Assembly: GCA_016788885.1 (NCBI GenBank)
Contig: JAEURX010000027.1
Location: forward strand, 1-64,000
Direction of reading: 5' to 3'
Length of the DNA stretch: 64,000 bases
Origin: Nitrospira sp.
GTDB taxonomy: Bacteria; Nitrospirota; Nitrospiria; Nitrospirales; Nitrospiraceae
The translations under genes and the position numbers were made by a program. Shown piece after piece: positions 9,930 through 41,682 of the stretch (positions are counted from its first letter, which is position 1; the number at the start of each line of letters is the position of its first letter). The notes under the pieces are model-generated. The model saw nothing but the letters and a program-made list of their open reading frames with translations, ran no database searches and had not been told where the DNA came from.

Positions 9930-11054
9930 CTAGAGCTGAGTCCATCGCCCTTCAAGTTTCTTCATGATCTGCGGCATCGTCGTATATTCCATATCCTCCA
10001 GCGGCAGCCGGTGCGGTTCGAACGGCCCATGCTGACGCAATACGTCGGCGGTGCGATTCGCATCCCGCCTCGCCTCATCGTAAGAAGGATCGTCGAACAT
10101 ATCCCGTGGCCCGATCAATCGGCCATTGGCGAGTTGAAACCCGAGACAGGCGACGCGTGGAGGGCCGTCGAACCGGGTCGGAGTCGCCTGTTTCACCGAG
10201 ACCGGCATGAGCGGACCATAATGCGAGCCTCGCATCCAGCCCTCGATGATCCAAGGATAACGGAACGGATCCAGCACCTCCCCCACCGCCGGAAAGTTCT
10301 GCTGCGCACGGACGATCATGACCGGGTCGTCCTTGCCGACATATTTCCCGGCGATCAACGACAGCCGCTCCGTAGAGGTAGCCGCGGCGATGGTCCCGTC
10401 CGCCCTCGAATACACCGCTTTCACCGTATACTTGCCCGGCGACCCGATGAACATGAGCATGTCGTACACCTCCTCCGGGCAATCGAAGAAAATTTTTGTG
10501 TGCTTGTAGATGTCGTGGACCTCGAAGCGGAACCCCTGATGCAGCGTCGGGGCGATCACCAGGCCGGCGGTCGTGAACGGGTCGGCAAACATCTTATACA
10601 GGGGGAGATTCCACGCCCCGGCAGACGTCTTATCCGCCATGAAAATCAGCACCGGGTCGGATTTCCGCTCGACGAACTCCATCTCGGCGACGCCGGGCCC
10701 CTGTCCACGCACGTTTCCGCTGAACGCATCAGCTAACAAATCCTGCCCCGCACCATACAGATGAAGCTCCTTGGCCACTGCGGTGCCGGACTCAAACGTC
10801 TCCCACGCCACCCGGTGAACCGGTTCATGATCGACGCCGTGGCGATGCGTCATGATCAACTGCAAATCATCCCCACAGGCCGACACGTGATAATCGACCA
10901 GCAACCCCTTGCTCTTCGCTACAGCCAGCTTCTCGTTCGCGCAATTCATGAGGGCCGGGTGGATCGCCGAATGCCCGACAAACCCGCCGATGTCCGCCTT
11001 GATCACACTCAGCGTGATCTGGCCGCTGTCCTCCGCACGCTGTTCAATCGCCAT
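9930..11054 (-). CDS. fbp: Class V fructose-1,6-bisphosphate aldolase/phosphatase
   Basis: A 374-residue bifunctional gluconeogenic enzyme of the archaeal/deep-branching bacterial type. It condenses dihydroxyacetone phosphate with glyceraldehyde-3-phosphate and then removes the 1-phosphate to give fructose-6-phosphate. Family signatures: LSVIKADIGGFVGHSAIHP (15-33), ACGDDLQLIMTH (59-70), LYGAGQDLLADAFSGN (99-114), DKTSAGAWNLPLYKMFADPF (141-160) and MFIGSPGKYTVKAVYS (201-216). Tyr209 and Lys212 have the spacing of the known Tyr/Schiff-base Lys pair. The enzyme directs carbon irreversibly to sugars, which fits an autotroph. A dispersed repeat starts right after the stop. No strong ribosome site is obvious before the ATG. 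Confidence 0.96.
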   Translation of the reverse strand: MAIEQRAEDSGQITLSVIKADIGGFVGHSAIHPALMNCANEKLAVAKSKGLLVDYHVSACGDDLQLIMTHRHGVDHEPVHRVAWETFESGTAVAKELHLYGAGQDLLADAFSGNVRGQGPGVAEMEFVERKSDPVLIFMADKTSAGAWNLPLYKMFADPFTTAGLVIAPTLHQGFRFEVHDIYKHTKIFFDCPEEVYDMLMFIGSPGKYTVKAVYSRADGTIAAATSTERLSLIAGKYVGKDDPVMIVRAQQNFPAVGEVLDPFRYPWIIEGWMRGSHYGPLMPVSVKQATPTRFDGPPRVACLGFQLANGRLIGPRDMFDDPSYDEARRDANRTADVLRQHGPFEPHRLPLEDMEYTTMPQIMKKLEGRWTQL

Positions 11055-11300
11055 GGTGCACCCCCAGGTGAAGAAGGGTTCGAGGTCGTCTCCTGGTCAC
11101 AGAGACACCTGTCCTGACACATCCTCTTTCAGGAATGAGCAAAGGCAATGCCTGGGCAAGGATGGGGCCGGTCCGGCAAATGCGCTGGATTTCCTAGCCG
11201 GCTTGACGCCACACACAAGAGGTCCGTGGACAGACGCGACAGTCAGGCAGCGAAATCTGTAGCAGAAGGCAGCAGGCTCATCGATCACGTACCGGCAAGG

Positions 11301-12847: not shown

Positions 12848-15661
12848 CTACTCTCGCTCATCGGACTGAAGACGGATAAGAGTTGCCAGCGCTTCTTGGT
12901 AGCGTTCCGGCAGGTTCTTAAACCGTTTCCGACACCCGACCAATGCGGCCTCGGCGGAGGCATAGGTGGCGACGACCTTCTTCAGATGCTCAACATATTC
13001 CTTGAGCTTGACCTCTACCAGCCTGGTGAGCCCTGGCTGACCAGCCAAGGTCGATGCTGCCGCCCGCTGGTCGCCTTTCGTTTCAACCATCGCCTGGAAA
13101 CACATGCCCTTCAACCGTTGCATCACCGTACTGCGATCCCATCCTAACGTGGTGCCGGTCGCCTGTAAGTCGAAGCTATGGTCGCGCAGCACCCGCAATA
13201 ACGCCTGATCGCTTTTCCTCGGGTCTCCATCCGCTTCTGACGGTAGAGCCGAAGGAACCTCAGTCGTATCGCGTGGAGAGAGAAGCGCCGTTCCGGTCAA
13301 TCGCAAGTCCTGCTCCAAGATCGTGTGGCCCTCTGCCAGTATCACGACGTTTTCAAGACACCGTTTAAGTTCCCGTACGTTGCCCTTCCAAGGCCAGCCC
13401 TCGAGGCGCTCCATCGCCCCTTGTGAAAGGACCATCCTGCTGCGTCCGCTCTTCGCGGTAGCCTCCTCAACAAACGCCATCGCAAGTTCTGCAATATCGT
13501 CGTGCCTTTCCCGCAGCGGCGGCAACTGCAGTTCGATACCATGTAACCGATAATACAGATCTTCCCGAAACCACCCTTCCGCAATGCCCCTTAGAAGGTC
13601 CCGATTCGTCGCGGCCACAACTCGCACATCGACCGCGACAGCGTTCCGATCTCCAAGACGGGTGACAACCCCTTCCTGCAAGACTCGCAGTAATTTCGCC
13701 TGTAGGTCGGGACGAAGATCGCCGATCTCATCAAGAAAAATAGTCCCCTTGTCGGCTTGGATAAAATGTCCCTGGTGATCGTGCACTGCTCCCGTGAATG
13801 AACCTCGGAGGTGGCCGAAAAGCTGGCTCTCGAAGAGGTCCGGAGGCACAGCCGCCATGTTCACCGGCACAAACGGGCGTGCAGACCGCGCGCTAAGCCG
13901 ATGGACGGCCTGAGCAAATAATTCCTTGCCTGTACCGGCTTCGCCGAGTATCAGAATCGGAGTCGAGGTACCTGCCGCTTTTTTCAGATCCTTCCAACAA
14001 CGCAGCATGGTCGGATCTCTGGTGAGGATACCGAATTGGGCGCATTCCTCCGCCAATGTCTGCAGTTCTCCCTGCGCGACAGGCGAGCGATGCAACTCGG
14101 CCGCTTGAATACTTTCTAAACGCGATTCTAGTTGCCTCACCGCTTGCCGGGATTCTGTCGCCTTGCTTTGAGCCACCTTCAAATCTCGCTGCAGGGACTC
14201 CAATACGTCGCGCAGTTGCGCCGTTTGGGTTCCTCCCGACAACGCCTCCGCCCGCGCCTGCTCAAGGTCCTCTTCCAATCGCTCGACTCTTGTCTCACGC
14301 TCCACCAACCGTTCTTGCCTTCCTGCCAATTCACGGTGGAGCGAGAGGCGCTCATCCTCGAGTTCCCGAATTCGCTCGGCACTCGCCCACCTGGTCCAGC
14401 CGAGCGTCAGGCCGGAAGCCCCGACAAGTGCCATCAGGGGGACGACAATCGGCATCACAATTCCGCCAAAGACAAATCCGCCGACCGCGGCAACCACATA
14501 GGCAACGCCGGTTGCCATCACGGCGACGAACCCCATCGCGAGCGAAAGTCCAAGCAGGCACCATGAGGCCCACACACCGGTCACCAACACGAGCCCCCAC
14601 TTCAGCCAGGCAGGACTGCTCCTCAGGGCGTCCTCATTGACGACCGTATTAAATAGGTTGGCGAGAATGAACCCGCCTGGTGCCTTTAATTCGAGTGGCG
14701 TTTGCCGCTTGTCCGAACCCAACGCCGCGTGTAGGATCAACACGGCTTTGCCGGCAACCTGTTCGCGAAGTTCCTCCTCACGGCCTTCTTGAATGGCATC
14801 CCATACATCCACCAACGGTAGATAGGGAAACGGCCCTTCCTCCCAGCGCCCCGCATACTTGACTAAGATGTCGCCCTGTTCATCCACAGGAATGGAGATG
14901 TTGCGTGTGTGGCCGTCAGGAAATGTTGCGCCTTGAAACGTCAGCGAATGACCCTGGCTCAACGTGATCTGCTCCGCCGACACCCGGAGATAGGCAGCCG
15001 CCAGCGCCACTCCCATCGAGGGAATCGCTTGCCCATCGGCATTCACAAACGACGGAATACGTCGGTAGACGCCATCGGCATCTGACATTGCCCCGATGTG
15101 GCCCACGCCGCGGGCAGCACGAAGGAGACCCGGCAGGGGACCGACTATGTGTTCACCGCGGGGGAGTCTCTCAAGAACTCCAGGTTCAAACGTCGGAACG
15201 AATCGCGCCAACTCATTTCGAAGTGGGATGGTTCGCGTCGAGGCCACTCCAGCATGATCCACCAGAAACTCTGGGAGTGGGAATAAGACGTTACCGGCCC
15301 GCGTTGCAGCCTCAATCAACGCACGATCGCTACTCGAACCGCCACGCACTTCCGGTGTCATTTCACCAAAATGAAAATCCAAGGCCACGACCTGAGCACC
15401 AGCACGATGCAACCCGGAAATCATAGTGGCAAACACCGCACGATCCCAAATCCCCACACCGAATCGAGCATCACTCTCGGCATCACGGCCGATGAGGAGA
15501 AGGCGCCCGCTGTCGGGCGTAGCCCGATGCCACTGCGCGCGAAGGTCGAAGGTCTTGGATTCCCAGGATTCAATGAGGTTGGGGGCGACCAATGTGAGCG
15601 CAGCAAGAACGGTCGCAACCGTGAGCCCGATGACAAGACTGGTCACCCAAGAACTTTTCAT
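12848..15661 (-). CDS. Membrane-bound CHASE2 sensor with sigma-54 activator (AAA+) domain and Fis-type HTH
   Basis: A 937-residue one-protein signalling device. It has an N-terminal membrane segment (about 6-28), an extracytoplasmic CHASE2 sensor domain (about 30-335), three membrane spans (about 352-418), a long coiled coil (about 427-520) and a sigma-54-interacting AAA+ domain. In that domain Walker A is GEAGTGKE (573-580), the sigma-54 contact loop is GSFTGA (620-625, the usual form being GAFTGA) and Walker B is GTIFLDEIGDL (639-649). A helix-turn-helix region follows near 830-865 (LQATGTTLGWDRSTVMQRLK) and about 70 more helical residues end the protein. It should turn on sigma-54 promoters in response to a periplasmic signal. 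Being last in the lipoprotein/protease cluster suggests it controls or monitors it. The Gly-Ser change in GAFTGA is tolerated in some activators. Confidence 0.95.
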   Translation of the reverse strand: MKSSWVTSLVIGLTVATVLAALTLVAPNLIESWESKTFDLRAQWHRATPDSGRLLLIGRDAESDARFGVGIWDRAVFATMISGLHRAGAQVVALDFHFGEMTPEVRGGSSSDRALIEAATRAGNVLFPLPEFLVDHAGVASTRTIPLRNELARFVPTFEPGVLERLPRGEHIVGPLPGLLRAARGVGHIGAMSDADGVYRRIPSFVNADGQAIPSMGVALAAAYLRVSAEQITLSQGHSLTFQGATFPDGHTRNISIPVDEQGDILVKYAGRWEEGPFPYLPLVDVWDAIQEGREEELREQVAGKAVLILHAALGSDKRQTPLELKAPGGFILANLFNTVVNEDALRSSPAWLKWGLVLVTGVWASWCLLGLSLAMGFVAVMATGVAYVVAAVGGFVFGGIVMPIVVPLMALVGASGLTLGWTRWASAERIRELEDERLSLHRELAGRQERLVERETRVERLEEDLEQARAEALSGGTQTAQLRDVLESLQRDLKVAQSKATESRQAVRQLESRLESIQAAELHRSPVAQGELQTLAEECAQFGILTRDPTMLRCWKDLKKAAGTSTPILILGEAGTGKELFAQAVHRLSARSARPFVPVNMAAVPPDLFESQLFGHLRGSFTGAVHDHQGHFIQADKGTIFLDEIGDLRPDLQAKLLRVLQEGVVTRLGDRNAVAVDVRVVAATNRDLLRGIAEGWFREDLYYRLHGIELQLPPLRERHDDIAELAMAFVEEATAKSGRSRMVLSQGAMERLEGWPWKGNVRELKRCLENVVILAEGHTILEQDLRLTGTALLSPRDTTEVPSALPSEADGDPRKSDQALLRVLRDHSFDLQATGTTLGWDRSTVMQRLKGMCFQAMVETKGDQRAAASTLAGQPGLTRLVEVKLKEYVEHLKKVVATYASAEAALVGCRKRFKNLPERYQEALATLIRLQSDERE

Positions 15662-30452: not shown

Positions 30453-31298
30453 CTATCGTGGCTCAGGATTGGTCCTAAGGTAGATGAACCAATAGACCAG
30501 CGCGACCAGGACCGTCCCCCCGATGATGTTGCCCAGGGTGACCAGCGCCAGATTGCTCAGCGCGTCCAGGATCGAGAAGGACGCCGAGCGTCCCGCAGTC
30601 AACGCAAACCCCAGCGGCAGGAAAAACATGTTCGCCACGGAATGCTCAAACCCGCAGGCCACGAACGCGCTGATAGGAAATAGGATGGCGAGCACTTTAT
30701 CCGCCACCGTCCGCGCCCCCATGCACAGCCACACGGCGAGGCACACCAATACGTTGCACAAGATCCCCCGGGCAAACGCCGCCAGCGGATCGAGCGCGAC
30801 CTTGCCGCGTGCGATGCGCACCATGGTCTCGCCGACCGCTCCGTCCCCCAACGTGTGCACCCCGGCGAGGAGCACCAACACCGCCGTTCCACCGGCGCCC
30901 AACAGATTCCCGAGATAGACCCATACCCAATTACGCACGACCTGCCGCGTCTGGACGCATCGGGCAGCCCAAGCCATCGCAATCAGATTGTTTCCCGTAA
31001 AGAGTTCCGCCCCGCCGACCACCACAAGAATCAGCCCCAAACTGAACGTCATCCCGCCGACCAGGCGCAGCACCCCGAACGGCAGCGCCGGGCTCTCGTT
31101 CCCCACCGTGATCGTGACCGTATAAAACAAAGCGCCCAGGGAAATGAACGCGCCGGCGAGCACGGCCAGCGCGACCATCGTCGGCACCGCCGTGTTCACC
31201 TTCGCCAGGCCGAGCTGACACACGCGCGCTGCGATCTCCGGCGGCGGATAAGCATCGGCAATGGACCCGGAGGCGGGAGTGACAGGCTCCGTCGTCAC
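30453..31298 (-). CDS. Formate/nitrite transporter (FNT family channel)
   Basis: A 281-residue inner-membrane pentameric channel with six spans. FNT hallmarks are present: AGAFISLGALFYT, GGAELFTGNNLIAMAW and HSVANMFFLPLG, which line the pore. FNT proteins pass formate, nitrite or related anions. Its place as the last gene of the formate dehydrogenase operon, with GTG overlapping the FdhA stop by 4 bp, argues for formate, although nitrite is possible. The gene starts with GTG at 31298. Confidence 0.93.
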   Translation of the reverse strand: MTTEPVTPASGSIADAYPPPEIAARVCQLGLAKVNTAVPTMVALAVLAGAFISLGALFYTVTITVGNESPALPFGVLRLVGGMTFSLGLILVVVGGAELFTGNNLIAMAWAARCVQTRQVVRNWVWVYLGNLLGAGGTAVLVLLAGVHTLGDGAVGETMVRIARGKVALDPLAAFARGILCNVLVCLAVWLCMGARTVADKVLAILFPISAFVACGFEHSVANMFFLPLGFALTAGRSASFSILDALSNLALVTLGNIIGGTVLVALVYWFIYLRTNPEPR

Positions 31299-34018
31299 GT
31301 GATCAACATCACATGTATGGGAGGAGCAGGCGCAGCGGACGGCGTCACTTTTTCCACCCTCACCGTCGAGACTTTATACTCGGGACACTTGGAACTTTCA
31401 TCGGCGCTGGAGGACAGCAACACGTTCACATCCGTGTCGGGAAAGTGAAAACTCGTGAACAGTTCGCCCGGCTGCACACGGTCGCTCACCACAATGGGCA
31501 ACCGTGCCTCCCCGCGAGCGCTGATGAGCCGGACCAGTTCGCCGTCGCGGAGCGCCAACCGAGCCGCGTCGCCGGCATGCACCTCCAACACATCGGTATC
31601 GACGACCTGCATGATGTCGGTGCGCCTGGTCTGCGCGCCACAATTGTAATGCTGCAAGATGCGGCCGGTGATCAGCACCAGCGGGTAGGATTCGCTGGGC
31701 GCCTCGCCGGGCGGGAGATACTCCACCGGAATAAACCGTGCTCTCCCCTTCGGAAACGACTGTTCGTGCATCAACGAAGTGCCCGGATGTGCGGTCGAAG
31801 GCACGGGCCACTGCAATCCCTCCGGCATGTCAAGCCGATCGTACGAGACCCCCGCAAATAACGGTGCGAGTTGCGCAATCTCATCCATGATGGCCGAGGG
31901 GTGGGAGTACTGCATCGCATACCCCATCCGCGCGGACACTTCGCAAACCACCTGCCAGTCCGGCAGCACGCCGGTCGGCGGCTCCACCGCTTTCCTGATA
32001 CGCTGGATACGTCGTTCGAGATTTGTAAAAGTCCCGTCCTTTTCCAGAAATGAGGCGCCGGGGATGACGAGATGCGCCAGTTTGGCCGTCTCGCTGAGGA
32101 AGAGATCCTGGACGATGAGGAACTCCAGACTCTTCAGCGCCGCATGGACCTTCTTCAGATTTGGATCGGTCTGAGCGACGTCATACCCGACGATCCAGAG
32201 CGTCTTGAGCCGACCAGCGAGCGCCGCGTCCCACATGTCGGGAGTTTTCATCCCCTTCGCCGTCGGCAACGGGCGACCGGTCACGGCCAGATGTGCGGCG
32301 CCAAGGGTGGAATCAGTCAGCGGCTGATACCCGGCAAAGAAGGTCGGTAAACAACCGACATCCGATGCGCCCTGTACATTGTTTTGCCCACGCAACGGAT
32401 TGATCCCGGTGCCGGGTTTTCCGATGTTCCCGGTCGCGAGGGCAAGGTCCACCAGGGCCATCACCCCGTGGCTGCCCCAACGATGTTCGGTCATGCCCAA
32501 CCCGTGCACCGCCATCGAGCCACCGCTGCGAGCGTATCGTCGCGCCGCCTCGGTGATGAGAGGCACCGGCACGCCGGTCGCGTTCGACGTCACTTCAGGC
32601 GTGCAGTCCTTCACCAGTGCCAACCAGTCATCGAAGCCTTCCGTCCGGTCACGCACGAACACCGCGTCGGTGAGATGTTCTTTGGCAATGACATGCCCCA
32701 TACCGTTCAACAATGCGACGTTGGTCCCCGGGTGCAGTTGCAGATGCAGATCAGCGAGCCGAGCCAGTTCCGTGCGGCGTGGGTCGATGACGATCAACGG
32801 CACTCCATTGCGCGCCGCCCGTTTGATACGCGCGCCCAACACCGGATGGGATTCAGTGGGATTTGCACCGACCACGAGGATCAGCTTCGCCAAGTCCAGA
32901 TCGTGGATCGAATTGGTCGCGGCCGACGCGCCGAGAGTTTCCATCATCCCGGTCACGGTCGCGCTGTGACAGACCCGCGCGCAGTTGTCGATGTGATTGG
33001 TGCCGATCACGCACCGCATGAACTTGCCGAATAGATAGTTTTCTTCGTTCGTGCCGCGGCTCGATGAAATCGTGGCCAACGCATCCGAACCATGGGCGGC
33101 CTTGATCCTGCTCCATTCCTCAGCGATCCGATCGAGGGCGGCAGACCAGGAAATTTCAACCCACTGCGTTCCCTGCCGGAGTAAGGGTACACGTAACCGA
33201 TCCGGCGCGTAGTTGTAGGTCCAGCCAAATCGTCCCTTCATACAGGCATGGCCGTGATTGGAGGGGCCGTCGTCTGCCGGCACCATGCACACCACTCGCT
33301 CATGCCGTACGCCGGCCTCAAAACTACAACCGACGCCGCAATAGGCGCAGGTCGTCCGGACGGAATGCATCGGCGGGCCTTCCTCCAGTACGGATTTTTC
33401 GATCAAGGCTCCCGTCGGACATTCCTTCACGCAAGCCCCGCAGGAGACACAGTTGGAGGAGGCAAACCCGGCCGACTCTCCGGTCAGCGCCGAGCCGCCT
33501 GCCGTCGGTCTGCTTTCAAACCCCCGGTGCAGCATCGTCAGCGCATGGGTGCCTTGTATGTCATCGCAGGCTCGCACACAGCGGGCGCAGGAGATACAGA
33601 CGGCATTGTCGAACAGGAAGAAGGGATTTGAGCGATCGACCGTCTGCGCCCTGGTGGCCGGCTGTTGGTACCGGACGTGACGAAGACCCAGCGATTGCGC
33701 CAATCGTTGCAACGGCTCCGGCGCCAGATCTCCCGACGGTTGCTCTGATAGGTAAAGTTCGAGGAGGTGTTTTCGCAGCCGTCGCACACGGTCGCTCTCG
33801 GTATGGACGACCATCCCCTCACGCACCGGCGTCGTGCAGGAGGCCGGGGTCCCTCCCTGTCCTTCCACCTCACAGAGACACATTCGGCAAGAGCCGAAGG
33901 GAGCCAGGTGGTCGGAGGTACAGAGTGCCGGAATGGCGATTCCGGCCTTCTTTGCCGCGACGTAAATCGTGTCGCCCGGCGACGCCTCAATCGGTCGCCC
34001 ATTAATGGAGAGTTTCAT
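31295..34018 (-). CDS. fdhA: Formate dehydrogenase catalytic (molybdopterin) subunit
   Basis: The 907-residue catalytic subunit of a soluble NAD+-linked formate dehydrogenase. An N-terminal [2Fe-2S] domain uses Cys33, 44, 47 and 61. A ferredoxin part has two [4Fe-4S] sets (Cys141/144/147/151 and 190/193/196/200), and the molybdopterin domain has its own cluster (Cys224/227/231/259). The predicted metal ligand is Cys350 in CARVCHSATV, so no selenocysteine is needed; the Mo/W-bis-MGD domain runs to the end. It should oxidise formate to CO2 and pass electrons to the adjacent NuoF- and NuoE-like subunits. It starts 12 bp after the NuoF-like stop. Confidence 0.97.
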   Translation of the reverse strand: MKLSINGRPIEASPGDTIYVAAKKAGIAIPALCTSDHLAPFGSCRMCLCEVEGQGGTPASCTTPVREGMVVHTESDRVRRLRKHLLELYLSEQPSGDLAPEPLQRLAQSLGLRHVRYQQPATRAQTVDRSNPFFLFDNAVCISCARCVRACDDIQGTHALTMLHRGFESRPTAGGSALTGESAGFASSNCVSCGACVKECPTGALIEKSVLEEGPPMHSVRTTCAYCGVGCSFEAGVRHERVVCMVPADDGPSNHGHACMKGRFGWTYNYAPDRLRVPLLRQGTQWVEISWSAALDRIAEEWSRIKAAHGSDALATISSSRGTNEENYLFGKFMRCVIGTNHIDNCARVCHSATVTGMMETLGASAATNSIHDLDLAKLILVVGANPTESHPVLGARIKRAARNGVPLIVIDPRRTELARLADLHLQLHPGTNVALLNGMGHVIAKEHLTDAVFVRDRTEGFDDWLALVKDCTPEVTSNATGVPVPLITEAARRYARSGGSMAVHGLGMTEHRWGSHGVMALVDLALATGNIGKPGTGINPLRGQNNVQGASDVGCLPTFFAGYQPLTDSTLGAAHLAVTGRPLPTAKGMKTPDMWDAALAGRLKTLWIVGYDVAQTDPNLKKVHAALKSLEFLIVQDLFLSETAKLAHLVIPGASFLEKDGTFTNLERRIQRIRKAVEPPTGVLPDWQVVCEVSARMGYAMQYSHPSAIMDEIAQLAPLFAGVSYDRLDMPEGLQWPVPSTAHPGTSLMHEQSFPKGRARFIPVEYLPPGEAPSESYPLVLITGRILQHYNCGAQTRRTDIMQVVDTDVLEVHAGDAARLALRDGELVRLISARGEARLPIVVSDRVQPGELFTSFHFPDTDVNVLLSSSADESSKCPEYKVSTVRVEKVTPSAAPAPPIHVMLIT

Positions 34019-34030
34019 CGTGATGCGCTC

Positions 34031-35548
34031 TCAGCCATCAGCATTCAGCTCATTGCTGACCGCTGACAGCTTATTTCTAAACTCTGCGGGAAAATGTTCG
34101 ATGGCCGTGAGCACCGGATAGGGCGCTCGCCCGCCCAGCGCACAAAGGCTGGCGAGTTTCATGGTTTCGCCCAGGTCGTCCAGTAAGCGGAGGTCATCCA
34201 TGGTTCCACTCCCCGCCTGAATTCGTTCGAGAATCTCACGCCCCCGCACCGAACCGATCCGACAGGGCGTACATTTCCCGCAGGACTCGTCGGCGGTGAA
34301 CGCCATGAAGTGTCGCGCCAAATCCACCATGTCGGTCTCATGGTCATAGACCACGATCCCGCCGTGCCCCAACACTGCGCCGGCCTTGGCGAACGCGTCG
34401 TAACAAATGGCAATATCCAAGCCGGTGCTCGGGAAGAGACTGCCCAACGGCCCGCCGACCTGCACGGCCTTGAATCGTGAGCCGGGGGCCATTCCTCCCC
34501 CGAACTGCTCCAGCACCTGATGCAAGCTCAGCCCGAATGGAACTTCGACCAGCCCTGGATGCTTCACACGCCCGCCCAACTGTAACGCGATGGTTCCACG
34601 AGACTGTTCGGTGCCGAGCCCCGCGTGCCATGCGCCACCACGCGACAGAATATTGGGAATGCTCGCAAAGGTCAGGACATTGCTGACGATGGTCGGGCAA
34701 CCGTACAACCCAGACTGGGCCGGATACGGCGGACGGGCACGCACCACACCCCGCTTTCCTTCAAGGGATTCCAGCAGGGCCGTCTCTTCTCCGCAAACGT
34801 AGGACCCGGCCCCCTCCACCACCTCGATCGGAAACGGTTCTCCATGCAACTCCAGCAACTCCGCTTCATCGGCTTTGTGAATGGCCGCTCGCAGAGTGGC
34901 CGCCGCGGCCGGATATTCCTGGCGGCAGTAGACATAGCCTTGACCGGCCCCGATGGCCCTGGCACAAATCAACATCCCTTCCAACAACCGGAATGGATCG
35001 CCCTCCAGAATCATCCGGTCGCAGTAGGTCCCTGCATCTCCTTCATCGGCGTTCGCCACGACATATTTCTGCTTACCCGTTGCCTGTTGAGCGACCTTCC
35101 ACTTGTTCCATACCGGAAATGCCGCGCCGCCGCGCCCGCGTAACTGCGAGACACGCAGTTCTTCGATGATGGCATCGGGCGTCAGCCTGAACGCCGCCTC
35201 CAATCCGGACAATCCGCCGCGCGCCTGGTACTCGTCCAAGGCCAGAGGTTCCGTCTCACCGAAGCTGGCAAAGGTGCATCTCGTCTGGTGCGCGAGGAAA
35301 GGGATCGTCTCGACCGGCGTGGCCCCCGTTCCGGCCAAAATCGAGGGCAAGTCCTGTGGAGACACATTGAACCAGGCGATCCGGCCCTGAGGACTGTCGC
35401 GCTCCACCATCGGCTCAAGATAGAACGCCCCGCGTGAAGAGGTTCGGATGAGTTGCACGTCGGGACGGTCGCACCAGGCCTCGGCCAGCGCACCGGCGCC
35501 GGCTGCACGCGCTGACGTATCGTTGGACAGGTAGAGTCGTGTGGCCAT
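34031..35548 (-). CDS. fdhB: Formate dehydrogenase diaphorase subunit (NuoF-like)
   Basis: A 505-residue flavoprotein that reduces NAD+. It has an N-terminal thioredoxin-like extension (about 1-120) and then the NuoF core: FMN/NADH-binding GRGGAAFPVWNKWK, NADEGDAGTYCDR, EGAGSYVCGEETALLESLEG, GCPTIVSNVLT. A [4Fe-4S] site uses ESCGKCTPCRIGS and the later SLCALG. Together with the FdhA and NuoE-like proteins it would form an FdsABG-type complex. Its gene lies 90 bp downstream of the NuoE-like gene and 12 bp upstream of fdhA. Confidence 0.95.
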   Translation of the reverse strand: MATRLYLSNDTSARAAGAGALAEAWCDRPDVQLIRTSSRGAFYLEPMVERDSPQGRIAWFNVSPQDLPSILAGTGATPVETIPFLAHQTRCTFASFGETEPLALDEYQARGGLSGLEAAFRLTPDAIIEELRVSQLRGRGGAAFPVWNKWKVAQQATGKQKYVVANADEGDAGTYCDRMILEGDPFRLLEGMLICARAIGAGQGYVYCRQEYPAAAATLRAAIHKADEAELLELHGEPFPIEVVEGAGSYVCGEETALLESLEGKRGVVRARPPYPAQSGLYGCPTIVSNVLTFASIPNILSRGGAWHAGLGTEQSRGTIALQLGGRVKHPGLVEVPFGLSLHQVLEQFGGGMAPGSRFKAVQVGGPLGSLFPSTGLDIAICYDAFAKAGAVLGHGGIVVYDHETDMVDLARHFMAFTADESCGKCTPCRIGSVRGREILERIQAGSGTMDDLRLLDDLGETMKLASLCALGGRAPYPVLTAIEHFPAEFRNKLSAVSNELNADG

Positions 35549-35638
35549 GGTGGTCAGTCGTATGTCCGGACACTGAACAACGCTGAAGCCTCTGTGCAGG
35601 CCAGGAGTGCGCAGAGGACGTACGCCGATAGGAGTCGC

Positions 35639-36088
35639 CTACGTATACCGTTCCAGGATCTTCTCCAGCTGTGACGGCAGCACGCGACCGTACAGGTCAC
35701 GATCGATGATCACAGTGGGGGACACTGCGCAGTTTCCCGCGCAGGACATCGTGTCGAGCGTGAACCGTCCTCCCGGTGTGGTTTCATGGACGTCGGCTCG
35801 CAGCCGTTCCTGCAATTCACGCAGCACGCGGCCGCAGCCGTTGGCGTAACACGATTCACCCATGCACACCCGAATGACATGACGCCCCGGCGCCGATGTG
35901 CGGAGATCCGGATAGTAGGACAGGACGCCAGCGACCTCGGCATCGGTGGCGCCAAGCTCACGCGCAATGCTCGGCACCCTCTCCGCCGGCACTGCGCCGA
36001 ATTGTTCCTGTAGCGCAAGGAGCGCCTTCAGGATGTTGGGAGGCTCGCTCCGTACGCGATCCAGGATGTCTTTCATCTGGTCATGCAT
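35639..36088 (-). CDS. Formate dehydrogenase gamma subunit (NuoE-like, [2Fe-2S])
   Basis: A 149-residue thioredoxin-like ferredoxin. The N-terminal helical part contains ILKALLALQEQFGAVPAERV. The four [2Fe-2S] cysteines are in RVCMGESCYANGC and SCAGNCAVSP. It hands electrons within the diaphorase part of the formate dehydrogenase. ATG 36088 and a second ATG at 36076 are both possible; ribosome sites are weak. It follows the 456-residue unknown gene by 38 bp. Confidence 0.94.
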   Translation of the reverse strand: MHDQMKDILDRVRSEPPNILKALLALQEQFGAVPAERVPSIARELGATDAEVAGVLSYYPDLRTSAPGRHVIRVCMGESCYANGCGRVLRELQERLRADVHETTPGGRFTLDTMSCAGNCAVSPTVIIDRDLYGRVLPSQLEKILERYT

Positions 36089-36126
36089 ATCAAGCCCGTC
36101 TCTCGCACCTCGTCGTTCGTCTCACA

Positions 36127-37497
36127 TCAGCAAAGTCCCACGTGAGCCCGCAGTTTGTTATAGTCGAAAGCCGCGACGCCACTCCGAAGCAGGCCGAAAT
36201 CACACCGTTCCATGTCATCGATCAGCCCTGCGACCTGGGCCTGGCCGGCCGATGTCTTCACGGCATGTCTGGGTGTCTCACCGCCGAGTACAGGCGACTC
36301 GCGGTCGGCCCATTCGAGATACACGGTTTCCAGGAAGGCGTTGAGCAACGCCCGGTCTTCCTCGTGACTCACCACGACGGTCAGCGGCTCTTGGGTGGAC
36401 AACTCCTCCGTCGTGACCTGACGAGCCGGAGGCTGCATGACTTCCCCCCTGAAATGAAGTGAAAATCCGAAGGCGGCTGCCAGACTGTGCTTGATCGCAT
36501 CCAGCCGTTCCCGTGAATCACACTCCACATACAGCTCTGTGGCCGTGACCGTGATTCGTGCCTGCTCGGCCCCCTCCGCCGCGTCTCCTTTCGCGGGGAA
36601 GAGGAACCGGCGCAGTTTCTTCGAGCCGGCGGTCACGTTGATGCGGAGCGGCGACTCCTCCCTCCACCCTTCCAGCTCGGCCATGCCGCCGGCGATGAAG
36701 GTATACTCGTGATGTTCGTACAACGCCATGACGTAAAAATGGGGCAGACCCTCGGGCGTCCGATACCGGATTTCCCCCACCGCTTCGACGAGAGCCGCGA
36801 AACGCATCCGAGCAAAATTTCTCAGCAGAATATGGCCGAACCGTTTCGCGAATTCCGGCCAGTCGCCGAGTTCGAAGGAACCGCCGACGACCTCCATCTC
36901 CCGACGTTCGTCACCGGTCTCTTCATACAACGTCCGCGCATCCTCAGCCGACAAGAGCAGCAGGGGGCCGGCCAGGACGGCCAGCGGGCTTTCCGGATCG
37001 CCGGGCTCACGAACGAGGCGGGTCAGCAACATCTGCCCCGTTTCGATGCTGCGGTCCAGGCTGTCGCCCGGGATCTCATATACCCGCCCGTTGCCGATCG
37101 ACCGAAGCTGACGGCGTCGCGAACCCGGCTGGCTCGGCCGGACCTCGACCAGATCGATGTAGGAATGTTTGAGCGGATCAAGCCAGACCCGCTCTTCCTC
37201 AGGGATGTGTTCGGTGATGACGTCGCGCAGTTGCTCTATCAGCGTCAACTGCCCGTCCTCGGGATAAAAATCTGCGTACAGCAGGAGGTCCGCCAGCGCG
37301 ACCTCTTCAGGCAGCGGCGCCAAGGGAGACTGCGGCCCTAGTTCGGCATACACCTGCAACGCCCTGGCAAATGCGAGGCGACGCTGAGGCGCGAACCCCG
37401 GGGCCATGGCCAGGCGATCAAGCCGCGACAGCAGGGAATCCAATTCCTTGACGATCGGGACCGACCGTGCGGCAACGCGCTCATTCGCGAGCTTCAT
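36127..37497 (-). CDS. Uncharacterised 456-residue protein in the formate dehydrogenase operon
   Basis: A soluble protein without signal peptide or membrane span. Readable blocks: an N-terminal helical region (VPIVKELDSLLSRLDRLAMA), ADLLLYADFYPEDGQLTLIE with ERVWLDPLKHSYIDLVEV, a middle part with EFAKRFGHILLRNFARMRFA and LPHFYVMALYEHHEYTFIAG, and a C-terminal domain ending CDFGLLRSGVAAFDYNKLRA. I recognise no family. GGAGG before ATG 37497 lies inside the end of the DUF2934 gene, so the genes are coupled. Its constant-strand position suggests a maturation or accessory role for formate dehydrogenase or stress response, an inference. Confidence 0.8.
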   Translation of the reverse strand: MKLANERVAARSVPIVKELDSLLSRLDRLAMAPGFAPQRRLAFARALQVYAELGPQSPLAPLPEEVALADLLLYADFYPEDGQLTLIEQLRDVITEHIPEEERVWLDPLKHSYIDLVEVRPSQPGSRRRQLRSIGNGRVYEIPGDSLDRSIETGQMLLTRLVREPGDPESPLAVLAGPLLLLSAEDARTLYEETGDERREMEVVGGSFELGDWPEFAKRFGHILLRNFARMRFAALVEAVGEIRYRTPEGLPHFYVMALYEHHEYTFIAGGMAELEGWREESPLRINVTAGSKKLRRFLFPAKGDAAEGAEQARITVTATELYVECDSRERLDAIKHSLAAAFGFSLHFRGEVMQPPARQVTTEELSTQEPLTVVVSHEEDRALLNAFLETVYLEWADRESPVLGGETPRHAVKTSAGQAQVAGLIDDMERCDFGLLRSGVAAFDYNKLRAHVGLC

Positions 37498-37705
37498 GGA
37501 TTTCCTCCATGACGACCGCTTCCGCATCCAGCCAATCCTGCAGGGCGTATCCTTCGCGGCAGCCCCGCTCCTTCCAGAGCTCGTAGGCTTTCTGCGAGAT
37601 CCGCTCCCACATGCCGTCAGGCAGCTCGATCGTTGCGCCCGACAGCCTAGACGCGACCGTCGGTTTCGAATTCACCGCTGACCGTTTCCTCACGTTGGGT
37701 TTCAT
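37481..37705 (-). CDS. DUF2934 small protein
   Basis: A 74-residue protein. A basic, Ser/Lys-rich start is followed by the DUF2934 signature WERISQKAYELWKERGCREG and ALQDWLDAEAVVMEE. DUF2934 proteins are small, acidic-helical and common in environmental bacteria; function unknown. AAAGGAG lies before ATG 37705. Its last 17 bases overlap the start of the 456-residue gene, and the tandem universal stress gene lies 30 bp upstream. Confidence 0.85.
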   Translation of the reverse strand: MKPNVRKRSAVNSKPTVASRLSGATIELPDGMWERISQKAYELWKERGCREGYALQDWLDAEAVVMEEIHEARE

Positions 37706-37735
37706 GGACGGACTCCTTTGCAAGAGGCGCGAAGA

Positions 37736-38674
37736 TCATGACTCTCCCAGCGGAACAACACGTTGATAGTCTGCGCCGACCGTGAGCCGGCGAACGGTGA
37801 GAACCGGGCATGGCGCGTACCGCAGCATGGCGCCGGCGATACTCCCGACAAGCACATGCGAGAGGCCGCGCCTCCCGTGTGTGCCCATGACCATCAGGTC
37901 GTACCCCTGCCCGGTCACATAGGAGGCAATCGAGTCGGCCGGCAACCCCGGCTTCAGCGCGAAGTCGGTCTGAATCCCATGGGCAGCCACACAGGCCGTG
38001 AGCACGGTCAGACGCTTTTCCAGATAGGCCCGCTGCTCCCTCCACTCCTTCGCGTGACTCAGGCTGAAATCCAACCCGTACGCAACCGGCTCCAGGGCGT
38101 GGAGAATTGTGATGGAGGCCCCGAGAGGCTTGGCAAACTGCACGGCATATTCCAACGCATCCAGTGAACAAGTCGACAGATCGATCGGGACCACAATCCG
38201 CTTGATCGTTGGACTCTGCGCGGCCGGAGCTGCGCCCTTGTCGGCCTTCACCGCGAGCACCGGACACGGTGCGATGCGAACCACCCGCTCCGCCGTGCTG
38301 CCCACCAACACGTGATCGAGCCCCGTGCGCCCATGCGTCCCGACCACCAGCAGGTCGGCCCCGATCTCCTCCGCCACGGTCTGCACGCATTGGCTGGGAA
38401 TGCCGGTTTCAATACGGCTCGTCATCGTCTGACCCGCCGCCTTGACCTTCCCCTCCAGAACGGCCAGCTGGCGATTCGCGTCGTCCCGCAAATGATCCAG
38501 ATACATTTTATTGACGGTGTACTCCGGATCCATTCCCGGATACAGTTCGAGGACGGTCATCACCGAGAGAGCTGATTTCCACACATTCGCCACGGCCAGG
38601 GCATACCCCAGTGCCCGGTCGGCGCAGGCCGAAAAATCCGTCGCAAACAAGACCCGCTTCATCAGCGCCGTCAT
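37736..38674 (-). CDS. Tandem universal stress protein (two UspA domains)
   Basis: A 312-residue protein with two Usp domains, each with an ATP-binding G-x2-G-x9-G-S loop: GTHGRTGLDHVLVGSTAE in the first half and GTHGRRGLSHVLVGSIAG in the second. Usp proteins bind ATP and support survival under starvation or redox stress. ATG 38674 begins 3 bp after the cupredoxin stop; GGAGG is 11 bases upstream. It sits within the putative sigma-54 operon together with formate dehydrogenase. Confidence 0.94.
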   Translation of the reverse strand: MTALMKRVLFATDFSACADRALGYALAVANVWKSALSVMTVLELYPGMDPEYTVNKMYLDHLRDDANRQLAVLEGKVKAAGQTMTSRIETGIPSQCVQTVAEEIGADLLVVGTHGRTGLDHVLVGSTAERVVRIAPCPVLAVKADKGAAPAAQSPTIKRIVVPIDLSTCSLDALEYAVQFAKPLGASITILHALEPVAYGLDFSLSHAKEWREQRAYLEKRLTVLTACVAAHGIQTDFALKPGLPADSIASYVTGQGYDLMVMGTHGRRGLSHVLVGSIAGAMLRYAPCPVLTVRRLTVGADYQRVVPLGES

Positions 38675-38677
38675 GAC

Positions 38678-39106
38678 TTAGGCCGCCTCCACACTCAAGA
38701 GAAGGAGTTCGCCCTTCATGTTCTGGTGAATCGAACAACGAAATTCATGACGACCCGGCCGTTCCATATTGAACCGGATCACCGCCTCCTTCTTGGCATC
38801 CAAGAAGACCCCGCTGATGCCTTTCCCGTACGACACCACCCCGTTGGACGTGACACGCGTCGGAATCCCCTCGAACATCGTGGAACCGAAATCGTGGCGC
38901 TCCTCATCTTCATTGGTGATGGCAATCACCGTCGGGACCCCCGGATGAAGCGGCACCTGCTTGGTCAGGAACGCAAAGCCCTTGATGGTTACTTCGATCC
39001 GTTGCTCCGCCTGGCCCCCCCCCTGCGAACAGAGCGCGAGCACAAACCCGGCCGCCAACAGGATCTGCTTTCCGCTCATCGCCGCTCTCCTCCACGTCAC
39101 ACCCAT
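38678..39106 (-). CDS. Exported cupredoxin (type 1 copper protein)
   Basis: A 142-residue blue-copper-like protein. It has a signal peptide (about 1-33, ILLAAGFVLALCSQGG) and a cupredoxin fold with the expected ligands His71 (ERHDFGS), Cys124, His127 and Met130 (EFRCSIHQNMKG). It probably carries electrons or copper in the periplasm. Two in-frame starts at 39106 and 39079 both have good ribosome sites; the upstream one was chosen. Being between two universal stress genes is unusual. Confidence 0.88.
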   Translation of the reverse strand: MGVTWRRAAMSGKQILLAAGFVLALCSQGGGQAEQRIEVTIKGFAFLTKQVPLHPGVPTVIAITNEDEERHDFGSTMFEGIPTRVTSNGVVSYGKGISGVFLDAKKEAVIRFNMERPGRHEFRCSIHQNMKGELLLLSVEAA

Positions 39107-39136
39107 AACGCTGCCTCCTTCTGATGTCTGATCTGT

Positions 39137-39637
39137 TTATGCGTTTTTCGCCGCGCGTGGTTTTCCTCGTTTGATCGGCAGGGGCACCGTGAGCACCGGA
39201 CAACCGGCGGTCCGGACGACTTTTTCCGCGGTGCTGCCGAAAAAAATCTTGTCGACGCCGCCAAACGCTCCTCCATAACTCCCCATCACCACGAGATCCA
39301 CGCCTTCCACCCGCGCCGTCTTGGCAATTTCTTCGAACGGACAACCGTCGGCAAGGATGCGCTTCACCGTCACACCCTTCGCTTCGTCCCAGGCCAACAG
39401 GTGCCTGGCATTCAACCGCGCAACGTGATGCAGCTGCTTCTTCTGCTGAGCCACCCCCGAGGCCGGTGCCAAACCGAGTCGGTTCAGCGCCTCGAGGCTT
39501 TTCGTATCGACCACGTGTAATAGCAGGACTTCCGCTTGATAGGACTTGGCAAACGACAGCGCGATCCGAAATGCCTCTTCTGAGCAGGGGGAAAAGTCCA
39601 CGGGGACCAGAATTTTTGTGAAGAGCCGATCCGCCAT
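39137..39637 (-). CDS. Universal stress protein, first gene of the putative formate dehydrogenase operon
   Basis: A 166-residue single UspA domain: start FTKILVPVDFSPCSEEAFRI, with ATP-loop GSYGGAFGGVDKIFFGSTAE and end AGCPVLTVPLPI. ATG 39637 is preceded by GGAGATGTG; longer frames are unsupported. A sigma-54 element lies 35 bp upstream of the ATG, so this should be the 5' gene of a nine-gene transcript. Confidence 0.92.
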   Translation of the reverse strand: MADRLFTKILVPVDFSPCSEEAFRIALSFAKSYQAEVLLLHVVDTKSLEALNRLGLAPASGVAQQKKQLHHVARLNARHLLAWDEAKGVTVKRILADGCPFEEIAKTARVEGVDLVVMGSYGGAFGGVDKIFFGSTAEKVVRTAGCPVLTVPLPIKRGKPRAAKNA

Positions 39638-39671
39638 CACATCTCCACAGAGGGCGTCATCCATACAGCTC

Positions 39672-39687
39672 AGCAAGGCCAATGCCA
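39672..39687 (-). promoter_or_regulatory. Sigma-54 promoter for the stress/formate dehydrogenase operon
   Basis: On the minus strand TGGCATTGGCCTTGCT has the GG (-24) and GC (-12) at correct spacing and matches TGGCAC-N5-TTGCT with one change. Transcription would begin near 39660, leaving a short leader with the ribosome site of the universal stress gene. Confidence 0.72.
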
Positions 39688-39788
39688 CTGAGATGGCGCG
39701 GAAGGCGTCGAAAATTCTTCCGGAATCTCTGCATTTCCTGGATTCTGTTCGTCTCGCCGACACCCGCCGACTTTGGCCGGTGGTGTCC

Positions 39789-39818
39789 TGCTACAGCCGC
39801 ACTACGCATCCTGTAGCA
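39789..39818. promoter_or_regulatory. Inverted repeat, candidate shared enhancer (UAS)
   Basis: TGCTACAG at 39789-39796 and CTGTAGCA at 39811-39818 form an 8-bp perfect inverted repeat with 14 bases between. Its centre is about 118 bp from the minus-strand -24 element and about 152 bp from the plus-strand one, a normal distance for a sigma-54 enhancer-binding protein acting on both promoters. Confidence 0.6.
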
Positions 39819-39954
39819 CAAAGCCACAGAGTGATGAAAGCTGACGCCGGACGCGACAGGTCATGGGTCGAGCGTGGTGACCTTCCCCCGGAATAGTCAC
39901 GGCATCCGGCTGTGGTGCCAGCAGAGCCTGTGTAAGCCAGACTCCATGCCTCGA

Positions 39955-39970
39955 TGGCACCTGTCTTGCT
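39955..39970 (+). promoter_or_regulatory. Sigma-54 promoter for the peptide/hydrolase/Usp operon
   Basis: TGGCACCTGTCTTGCT matches the sigma-54 consensus TGGCAC-N5-TTGCT exactly. Transcription would start near 39982, just before the ribosome site (AAAGGA) of the 31-residue peptide gene at 39997. Confidence 0.8.
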
Positions 39971-39996
39971 CAGAAAGCAGCTGAAAGGACGACACG

Positions 39997-40092
39997 ATGT
40001 CGCGAACACAGTGGCTGTTCCTGGGGGCGGTGTTGATCGGGATCGCCGTCGCACTCTACCTGATCTTCTTCTGCCCGGCAGACTGTCATTGA
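39997..40092 (+). CDS. 31-residue single-span membrane peptide
   Basis: MSRTQWLFLGAVLIGIAVAL then YLIFFCPADCH: one membrane helix with two Cys and a His at the C-terminal end (CPADCH), which might bind metal or form a disulphide. AAAGGACGACACG precedes the ATG, and a consensus sigma-54 promoter ends 26 bp upstream. Too short for standard ORF searches. Function unknown; its regulation links it to the stress/formate region. Confidence 0.7.
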   Translation: MSRTQWLFLGAVLIGIAVALYLIFFCPADCH

Positions 40093-40130
40093 CCGGACGT
40101 TCCATTCGAACGGAGTCAGGCACGTCAATC

Positions 40131-40170
40131 TATGCACCAGGACAACATCCTATGCACCAGGACAACATCT
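40131..40170. repeat. 20-bp tandem duplication at the hydrolase start
   Basis: TATGCACCAGGACAACATCC at 40131-40150 is repeated at 40151-40170 with only the last base changed. Each copy contains an ATG-CAC-CAG-GAC-AAC start-like sequence. Because the unit is 20 bp, the two ATGs are in different frames; only the second opens the hydrolase. Confidence 0.9.
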
Positions 40171-40808
40171 ATCAGATCACCGCCACCGGCGACGGGATCA
40201 GCCTCGACGGATTTTTGCGAATTCCCGATCATCCCAAAGGGGTGGTGGCCTTTGCCCATGGCAGCGGAAGCGGGCGCTTCAGTCCCCGCAATCAATACGT
40301 GGCCCGTGTGCTCGAAACCGGCGGTTTCGCTACCCTGCTGCTGGACCTGCTCACTCCCGACGAGGCTGACGATCGCCGGAAAGTGTTCGACATCGATCTG
40401 CTTGCCGACCGCCTGCTGCTCGCCCAGACGTGGCTTGCCACGCATCGGCCGACCAGCGGACTACAGACCGGGTATTTCGGTGCGAGCACAGGAGCCGGGG
40501 CAGCCCTGCAGGCAGCCGCACGCCGTCCCGAGGCCGTGAATGCTGTCGTGTCACGCGGCGGGCGCCCCGATCTGGCCGAGGCCTACCTGCGTCGGGTTAC
40601 TGCACCGACTCTCCTGCTGGTAGGCGGAGACGACGGCCCCGTGATTGAAATGAATGAAACGGCGCTCGCGCAGCTCACGTGCCGAAAACAGCTCATCGTC
40701 ATCCCTGGCGCGAGTCACCTTTTTGAAGAACCAGGCACCCTCGAACAGGTGGCTCGGGAAGCCTTGCAGTGGTTTGAACGGTATCTGAATCCTGCATCAT
40801 CCGCGTAA
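40152..40808 (+). CDS. Alpha/beta hydrolase, dienelactone-hydrolase-like
   Basis: A 218-residue cytoplasmic alpha/beta hydrolase. Features: GVVAFAHGSGSGRFSPRNQY (oxyanion-hole HG region), nucleophile elbow GYFGASTGAGAAL (G-x-S-x-G), acidic residue in LLVGGDDGPV and His in VIPGASHLF. Substrate unknown; relatives are often labelled phosphoribosyltransferase-linked or dienelactone hydrolases. ATG 40152 lies in the second copy of the tandem duplication, with CCAGGA nine bases upstream. The upstream ATG at 40132 is out of frame. Second gene of the plus-strand sigma-54 unit. Confidence 0.87.
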   Translation: MHQDNIYQITATGDGISLDGFLRIPDHPKGVVAFAHGSGSGRFSPRNQYVARVLETGGFATLLLDLLTPDEADDRRKVFDIDLLADRLLLAQTWLATHRPTSGLQTGYFGASTGAGAALQAAARRPEAVNAVVSRGGRPDLAEAYLRRVTAPTLLLVGGDDGPVIEMNETALAQLTCRKQLIVIPGASHLFEEPGTLEQVAREALQWFERYLNPASSA

Positions 40809-40818
40809 AGGAGTCCCC

Positions 40819-41682
40819 ATGAAGACCCTGCTGGCAGTCGATGGATCGGACCATTCTTACGAGGCCGTGCGAGCCCTCAAGTATCTCCGCCACGCCGACG
40901 AATTGCTCCTGCTCCATGTGGTGGATGCGCCGAAACCGGCCTACCCCATGATGGTACCCGAAGTCGCGCAGGAGCTGTATGCGCAATTGGAGCGCAGCCT
41001 GAGAGAAGACGGCGAACAATTGCTGACCCGCGTGCAGTCCCTACTTCCACTCCACGGTGGGCCAGTCACCAAACTGCTGGAGGTTGGATCCCCCGCGGAA
41101 CATATCGTGTCGGCGGCTGAGTCGCGCCACGCCGACCTCATTGTCATGGGAGCCAGGGGACTCGGGCCGGTGAGGGAGCGACTACTAGGCAGTGTCTCTC
41201 ATCGCGTCTTGAGCATGGCCCCTTGCGCCAAACTGATCCTGCAGGGTTCCCTGCGCGCCTTGAAGGAAGTGCTCCTGCCCATCCAAGGCCCCTCGGATGC
41301 CGAGGCGGCTGTGCGATTTCTCGCGAAACAGCCCTTTCACGAGCCCGTGAACGTAAACCTACTCACCGTCCTCCCGTCGACCCGCCCTCCCTGGCCGGTG
41401 GACACCACGGCTGTGGAACAACTGGAAACACAGGCCCTCCGTCATGCCCGCGACTTCGTCGAAGATGTTGCGGGAAAGCTTCGTGCGCTCGGGTATACGA
41501 CCCGCACCGCAAGCCGGCTGGGTACGCCCCTCACCATGATCCTCCATGAAGCGGAAGGCCTGCGTGTCGACCTCATTCTGGTGGGCTCGCACGCGAGACG
41601 CGGCCTCACCAGGTTCGTCCTGGGAAGCGTGTCCCACGCGGTGCTGCACCGAGCCCCCTGTCAGGTTCTGGTGTTTGAGTAA
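40819..41682 (+). CDS. Tandem universal stress protein (two UspA domains)
   Basis: A 287-residue protein with two Usp domains. The loops GARGLGPVRERLLGSVSH and GSHARRGLTRFVLGSVSH keep the G-x2-G-like and final G-S pattern, though the second has A in place of one Gly. TAAAGGAGTCCCC precedes the ATG, 10 bp after the hydrolase stop. It closes the divergent sigma-54 unit. With the two minus-strand genes this makes five Usp domains within 4 kb. Confidence 0.93.
   Translation: MKTLLAVDGSDHSYEAVRALKYLRHADELLLLHVVDAPKPAYPMMVPEVAQELYAQLERSLREDGEQLLTRVQSLLPLHGGPVTKLLEVGSPAEHIVSAAESRHADLIVMGARGLGPVRERLLGSVSHRVLSMAPCAKLILQGSLRALKEVLLPIQGPSDAEAAVRFLAKQPFHEPVNVNLLTVLPSTRPPWPVDTTAVEQLETQALRHARDFVEDVAGKLRALGYTTRTASRLGTPLTMILHEAEGLRVDLILVGSHARRGLTRFVLGSVSHAVLHRAPCQVLVFE

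Follow-up and report, generated by a model that had tools for sequence, protein, structure and literature searches.

Hypoxia programs rich in universal stress proteins (Usps) include the low-oxygen-activated (lxa) locus of Burkholderia and the mycobacterial DosR regulon; we know of no report that a sigma-54 enhancer drives either of them. In E. coli glnAp2, two strong NtrC sites are located about 32 bp apart. These tandem sites lie upstream of a sigma-54 promoter, and the system involves DNA looping (PMC7408454). In M. xanthus, NmpR is an NtrC-type hypoxia response regulator with Usp and CBS-domain targets and sigma-54 promoters; its dyads are N5-centred and, in five of seven bound promoters, paired at a distance of 14-15 nt (PMC11841059). 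Closer to the genome analyzed here, N. marina at ~5.6 uM oxygen showed raised levels of several Usps, formate dehydrogenase, a four-subunit POR and N-ATPase, and its authors proposed a regulatory role for UspA proteins from proteomics only, with no cis element described (PMC8115632). The functions that respond to low oxygen in N. marina (Usps, formate dehydrogenase) are the same as those encoded at the locus described below, whereas the formate dehydrogenases are not closely related; according to that study, the N. marina enzyme diverges from its counterparts in N. moscoviensis and N. defluvii (PMC8115632).

The regulation of alternative energy metabolism and low-oxygen survival in Nitrospira is barely known, and the literature that we found gives no cis-regulatory element. 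Nitrospira are the most widespread nitrite oxidizers, and an enhancer sequence valid for the whole family would make it possible to test the published low-oxygen proteome as a regulon, with predictions of the genes that respond. In the open-access literature searched, we found no paper linking Nitrospira, sigma-54 and these genes, and no description of such a motif or regulon in Nitrospiraceae. The type of system, i.e., an NtrC-type paired-dyad enhancer with divergent sigma-54 promoters, is well known, and its Nitrospiraceae motif and regulon are apparently undescribed.

The window (the whole stretch of Nitrospira DNA that was analyzed, 64 kb in length) contains two divergent operons with a 360-bp intergenic region, in which an earlier note had placed two sigma-54 promoters and one inverted repeat. 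Both -24/-12 elements were located exactly at the positions claimed, and both have correctly spaced -24 GG and -12 GC elements. The minus-strand promoter TGGCATTGGCCTTGCT (39672-39687) is expected to drive the Usp/cupredoxin/formate dehydrogenase operon from a predicted start at ~39661, and the plus-strand promoter TGGCACCTGTCTTGCT (39955-39970) is expected to drive the peptide/hydrolase/Usp operon from a predicted start at ~39981. The pattern TGGCAYN5TTGCW has two matches in the window, which are these two promoters, compared to 0.10 expected, and none of 100 shuffles of the window contained two matches; genome-wide, there are 18 matches versus seven for the reversed control. A search of the intergenic region for a sigma-70-type promoter found none. 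Downstream of both predicted starts, the leaders are ~16-25 nt long and contain a Shine-Dalgarno-like sequence before the start codons of Usp1 (39637, minus strand) and of the 31-aa peptide (39997, plus strand). The inverted repeat TGCTACAG-N14-CTGTAGCA (39789-39818; 30 bp, without strand) also has exactly the sequence and coordinates claimed. Its distances of 118 and 152 bp from the promoters are valid when measured from the repeat centre to the -24 GG, and correspond to ~142 and ~177 bp to the predicted starts.

Lack of conservation in relatives had been named beforehand as the result that would speak against these elements; the comparison was run, and the idea survived it. Homologous regions were collected by a DNA search across the family and, with the cupredoxin as the starting point, from named genomes, almost all of which carry the label Nitrospira, Nitrospiraceae or Nitrospirota; 87 of the regions were non-redundant. 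Two cultured species, N. defluvii and N. moscoviensis, both possess the locus. The minus-strand -24/-12 element is kept in 83 of these regions (shuffled control, 0.7%), the plus-strand element in 76 (0.6%), and the repeat, with at most one core mismatch, in 73 (0.06%); both promoters and the repeat occur in order in 69 regions, compared to zero in the shuffled control. Among family genomes, the repeat with at most one mismatch was detected in 121 of 175, versus one of 175 for the reversed pattern. Across the phylum, the repeat accompanied by a -24/-12 element 76-106 nt away was found in 38 of 396 genomes, all but one of them within the family, versus one of 396 in the control. The observation of the promoters and the repeat is correct and far beyond chance. 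The proposal that two divergent sigma-54 promoters share an enhancer is strongly supported by the conservation, the presence of rpoN and the NtrC-type spacing; it had to be amended in that the enhancer consists of two dyads, the regulon is wider, and formate dehydrogenase is a passenger. We therefore consider it probable that the locus is a sigma-54 control unit, in which divergent promoters share one paired-dyad enhancer and an NtrC-type activator that also controls a gene for fructose-1,6-bisphosphate (FBP) aldolase/phosphatase.

Each operon is taken to be one transcript, as inferred from gene spacing. The minus operon (30453-39637), with intergenic gaps from overlap to 90 bp, begins with the single-domain Usp1 (39137-39637; PF00582, 3.1e-32), followed by a cupredoxin-like protein (38678-39106; PF13473), a two-domain Usp recognized by domain search (37736-38674), a small DUF2934 protein (37481-37723; PF11154) and a conserved 466-aa protein of unassigned function (36127-37527). 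The remaining genes on the same strand encode NuoE-like [2Fe-2S] (35639-36088), NuoF-like (34031-35548) and alpha (31295-34018; TIGR01591, above cut-off) subunits of formate dehydrogenase, and a formate/nitrite transporter of the FocA/NirC family (30453-31298; PF01226). The plus operon (39997-41682) includes the 31-aa single-TM peptide MSRTQWLFLGAVLIGIAVALYLIFFCPADCH (39997-40092), an alpha/beta hydrolase of the dienelactone hydrolase type (40152-40808) and a two-domain Usp (40819-41682). Thus, the five Usp domains that had been counted are present (one plus two on the minus side, two on the plus side), as are the cupredoxin and the membrane peptide.

The formate dehydrogenase genes do not accompany the element everywhere: they are found in 39 of 53 informative loci and are absent from 14. 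Conversely, across 62 loci, Usp1 is kept in 60, the two-domain Usp in 57, the 466-aa protein, a member of this constant core, in 54, and DUF2934 in 52; on the plus side, the Usp is kept in 56 and homologues of the 31-aa peptide in 47. The three loci without formate dehydrogenase that were inspected (L131, L138, L147) all contain a further Usp, and in L138 and L147 a phosphofructokinase-like gene continues the operon region. A MarR-like gene was also noted in this region among these relatives. Because formate dehydrogenase is optional while the Usp-type cargo persists, formate oxidation is best seen as a replaceable module within a stress programme, in which the Usp/cupredoxin set is the constant cargo. 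For the same reason, FhlA-type formate-responsive control was rejected.

The element occurs a second time as TGCTACAG-N14-CTGTCGCG (11235-11264, minus strand), 28 kb from the first copy and with two mismatches to the repeat. This second copy consists of the inner halves of dyads at 11257-11275 and 11224-11242, and it lies 82 bp, measured from the element core, from the -24/-12 promoter AGGCATTGCCTTTGCT (11137-11152, minus strand). The next gene is that of FBP aldolase/phosphatase (9930-11054, minus strand; NF041126, above cut-off; PF01950). In the entire 3.9 Mb genome, the perfect inverted repeat TGCTACAG-N14-CTGTAGCA occurs once, and the core GCNACAG-N14-CTGTNGC occurs without mismatch at two sites only, i.e., those before Usp1 and the FBP gene. 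The same arrangement at the FBP gene was found in at least 10 relatives (L161, L162, L181-L183, L186-L189, L279). Control by this element therefore seems to extend beyond the intergenic region, because the window has this further copy before the gene for FBP aldolase/phosphatase.

Other targets were detected in relatives, where gene names come from reading of translated sequences and not from family searches. The motif with a linked -24/-12 element precedes cytochrome c/MlaC-like genes (L195, L255, L258, L263, L265), a response regulator (L266), a hemerythrin (L273), a POR gene (L280), a Usp plus Hsp20 (L190) and, in another genus, a divergent CBS-domain locus (L272, L275, L276). It is also found before an operon of glycosyltransferase, glycogen phosphorylase, acetate kinase and phosphoketolase genes (L192, L193, L248, L254), where the only promoter of some copies is non-canonical. 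Near the motif at TolC-, FtsH- and N-ATPase-beta-like genes (L242-L246, L250, L264, L274, L277), no clear -24/-12 element was found. Many of these copies have GCGACAG arms, and some lie ~8-9 kb apart on one contig (G103:C94). Some motif matches inside genes are probably due to chance.

Low oxygen is likely to be the signal, because the functions found here are those of the N. marina low-oxygen proteome and the architecture resembles that of the M. xanthus NmpR hypoxia regulon. It should be noted that, in relatives, the motif precedes POR, N-ATPase and phosphoketolase/acetate kinase genes, and that POR and N-ATPase are among the proteins raised in N. marina. A broader reading, which we judge to be evenly balanced between right and wrong, is that of a Nitrospiraceae-wide sigma-54 regulon, in which one NtrC-type activator acting at paired dyads would shift the cell from aerobic growth to low-oxygen survival. 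The stress proteins would be constant in such a regulon, and the energy module would be exchanged between species, being represented by formate dehydrogenase, phosphofructokinase, phosphoketolase/acetate kinase, POR or N-ATPase. It is possible, although we regard it as rather unlikely, that the regulon responds instead to a shortage of energy or carbon, to formate or to the redox state. A response to energy starvation would suit the Usps, FBP aldolase/phosphatase, glycogen phosphorylase and phosphoketolase/acetate kinase, and a formate signal would agree with the presence of formate dehydrogenase and a formate channel in the operon, and with the FhlA-like GAF-domain activators encoded in this genome. 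However, the loci without formate dehydrogenase mostly retain the element, which makes formate unlikely as the common signal, and the published induction of the same functions by low oxygen in N. marina speaks for oxygen (PMC8115632).

The anatomy of the enhancer bears on how the repeat is to be read. The sequence and position given for one inverted repeat were exact; as a single palindrome, the description does not hold, and the repeat is best read as the inner halves of two tandem 19-bp dyads, CTGTNGC-N5-GCNACAG, in NtrC-type paired-enhancer geometry. Dyad 1, CGGTGGTGTCCTGCTACAG (39778-39796), on the Usp/formate dehydrogenase side, has a degenerate outer half and two mismatches, whereas dyad 2, CTGTAGCACAAAGCCACAG (39811-39829), on the hydrolase side, is exact. 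The dyads are separated by a 14-bp gap, so that their centres are 33 bp, or about three helical turns, apart. In the alignment on the repeat, the information per column is 1.83 bits in the arms, 0.25 in the 14-bp spacer, and 1.18 (left, dyad 1) and 1.38 in the outer flanks, compared to a background of 0.22; conservation outside the arms reaches ~11-13 bp and then ends. Dyad 2 is exact in 40 of 69 relatives and has at most two mismatches in 64, while the degenerate dyad 1 has at most two mismatches in 12. The spacer is 14 bp in 62 relatives, 15 bp in five and 13 bp in one. Several regions initially scored as lacking the repeat turned out to have it with a spacer of 13 or 15 bp, and most Usp1-bearing genomes initially counted as repeat-less likewise contain a relaxed repeat or a 13- or 15-bp spacer. 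The variable spacer and the conserved outer flanks are as predicted for a pair of dimer sites at a distance of three helical turns, and not for one dimer on a rigid palindrome, and a single-palindrome operator was rejected on these grounds. A possible third dyad, CTGACGCCGGACGCGACAG (39841-39859), with one mismatch, is weak and unconserved (two of 69 relatives).

We consider it improbable, for these reasons, that the promoters are of the sigma-54 type while a separate repressor or activator uses the repeat as its operator, with one dimer on a long palindrome. Such an operator would fit the perfect inverted repeat being the most conserved part of the alignment, and some motif copies in relatives that have no -24/-12 element nearby; however, the outer half-sites that complete the N5-centred dyads are conserved over spacers of 13, 14 or 15 bp, and the element lies 80-145 bp from a -24/-12 element both at the Usp1 operon and at unrelated FBP, cytochrome c/MlaC-like and response-regulator genes. 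On the Usp side, the gap between enhancer and promoter is mostly 82-145 bp, which, like the 82 bp at the second site, falls within the range of ~80-200 bp upstream that is expected of an activator site. The promoter on the side of the degenerate dyad is that of Usp1 and, at the second site, that of the FBP gene, which is why these two promoters look like the primary targets. This polarity in dyad quality could also mean that only one operon is under sigma-54 control and that the facing promoter is incidental, which is very improbable given the retention of the plus promoter in 76 of the 87 relatives.

The paired-dyad enhancer resembles the sites of NmpR in its N5-centred dyads with a 14-bp gap (range 13-15), sigma-54 promoters and Usp and, in relatives, CBS-domain targets, and differs from them in sequence (CTGTNGC-N5-GCNACAG here, GCGCA-N5-TGCGC for NmpR) and in phylum. 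With glnAp2 it shares paired activator sites; it differs in that glnAp2 belongs to nitrogen regulation and has one promoter, versus two divergent ones here. NtrC half-sites are also different from those of the Nitrospira dyads. The control unit that we favour builds on what the sequence shows, namely both promoters, the pairing of the dyads, their conservation, the second site, and the rpoN and activator genes of the genome. In it, an NtrC-type activator would bind both dyads as dimers and oligomerize, then loop the DNA and open the sigma-54 polymerase with ATP at either promoter. Activation of the minus operon would yield stress proteins and the cupredoxin, to which this genome adds formate dehydrogenase and the formate channel, whereas the plus operon would yield the membrane micropeptide, the hydrolase and a stress protein. 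From the element at 11.2 kb, the same activator would drive FBP aldolase/phosphatase.

The genome has a single rpoN, and its sigma-54-activator domains comprise 31 strong matches and two weak ones. In a co-occurrence search for the activator gene, none tracked the motif cleanly. One candidate, L020 (G000:C1, 459 aa), is common to all five small genomes taken as element-bearing and is missing from three without the element. Across the family it is near-universal (164 of 175 genomes) and is kept by several genomes without Usp1; co-occurrence therefore does not single it out as the activator, and it is retained as a weak lead. The NtrX-like L010 and L011 are likewise near-universal. Another candidate, L006, belongs to an activator-kinase-receiver cluster, and a homologue of the receiver elsewhere carries the element and a -24/-12 promoter; the element-bearing genome G080 lacks L006. 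Thus, the leads are L020, L010 and L011 by co-occurrence and L006 by linkage, none of them decisive. The enhancer, as defined here, can serve as bait for the regulator, and the stress proteins are suggested to be co-regulated cargo and not regulators. In L279, an activator gene adjoins the FBP gene, and its product is not an orthologue of any activator of this genome (best 47%). A CHASE2-domain sigma-54 activator (12848-15661, minus strand) was rejected as well, with no reciprocal best match in the nine genomes compared. It adjoins a series of lipoprotein-like genes, is close to the FBP gene both in this genome and in L183 and L186, and has a central helix-turn-helix followed by an unusual C-terminal extension.

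Several features of individual genes were also observed. The 466-aa protein, kept in nearly all loci, has a mean column identity of 65%; it has no match in NCBIfam and, in Pfam, only a sub-threshold match to an Xre/MbcA/ParS C-terminal domain, and its AlphaFold2 model is of moderate confidence (pLDDT 68). The C-terminus of the 31-aa micropeptide is conserved as FFCP-x-[DE]-C-[HQ], and its two cysteines suggest a possible role in metal or redox chemistry. At the start of the hydrolase gene, a 20-bp tandem duplication, CTATGCACCAGGACAACATC (40130-40169), creates two ATG codons in different frames.
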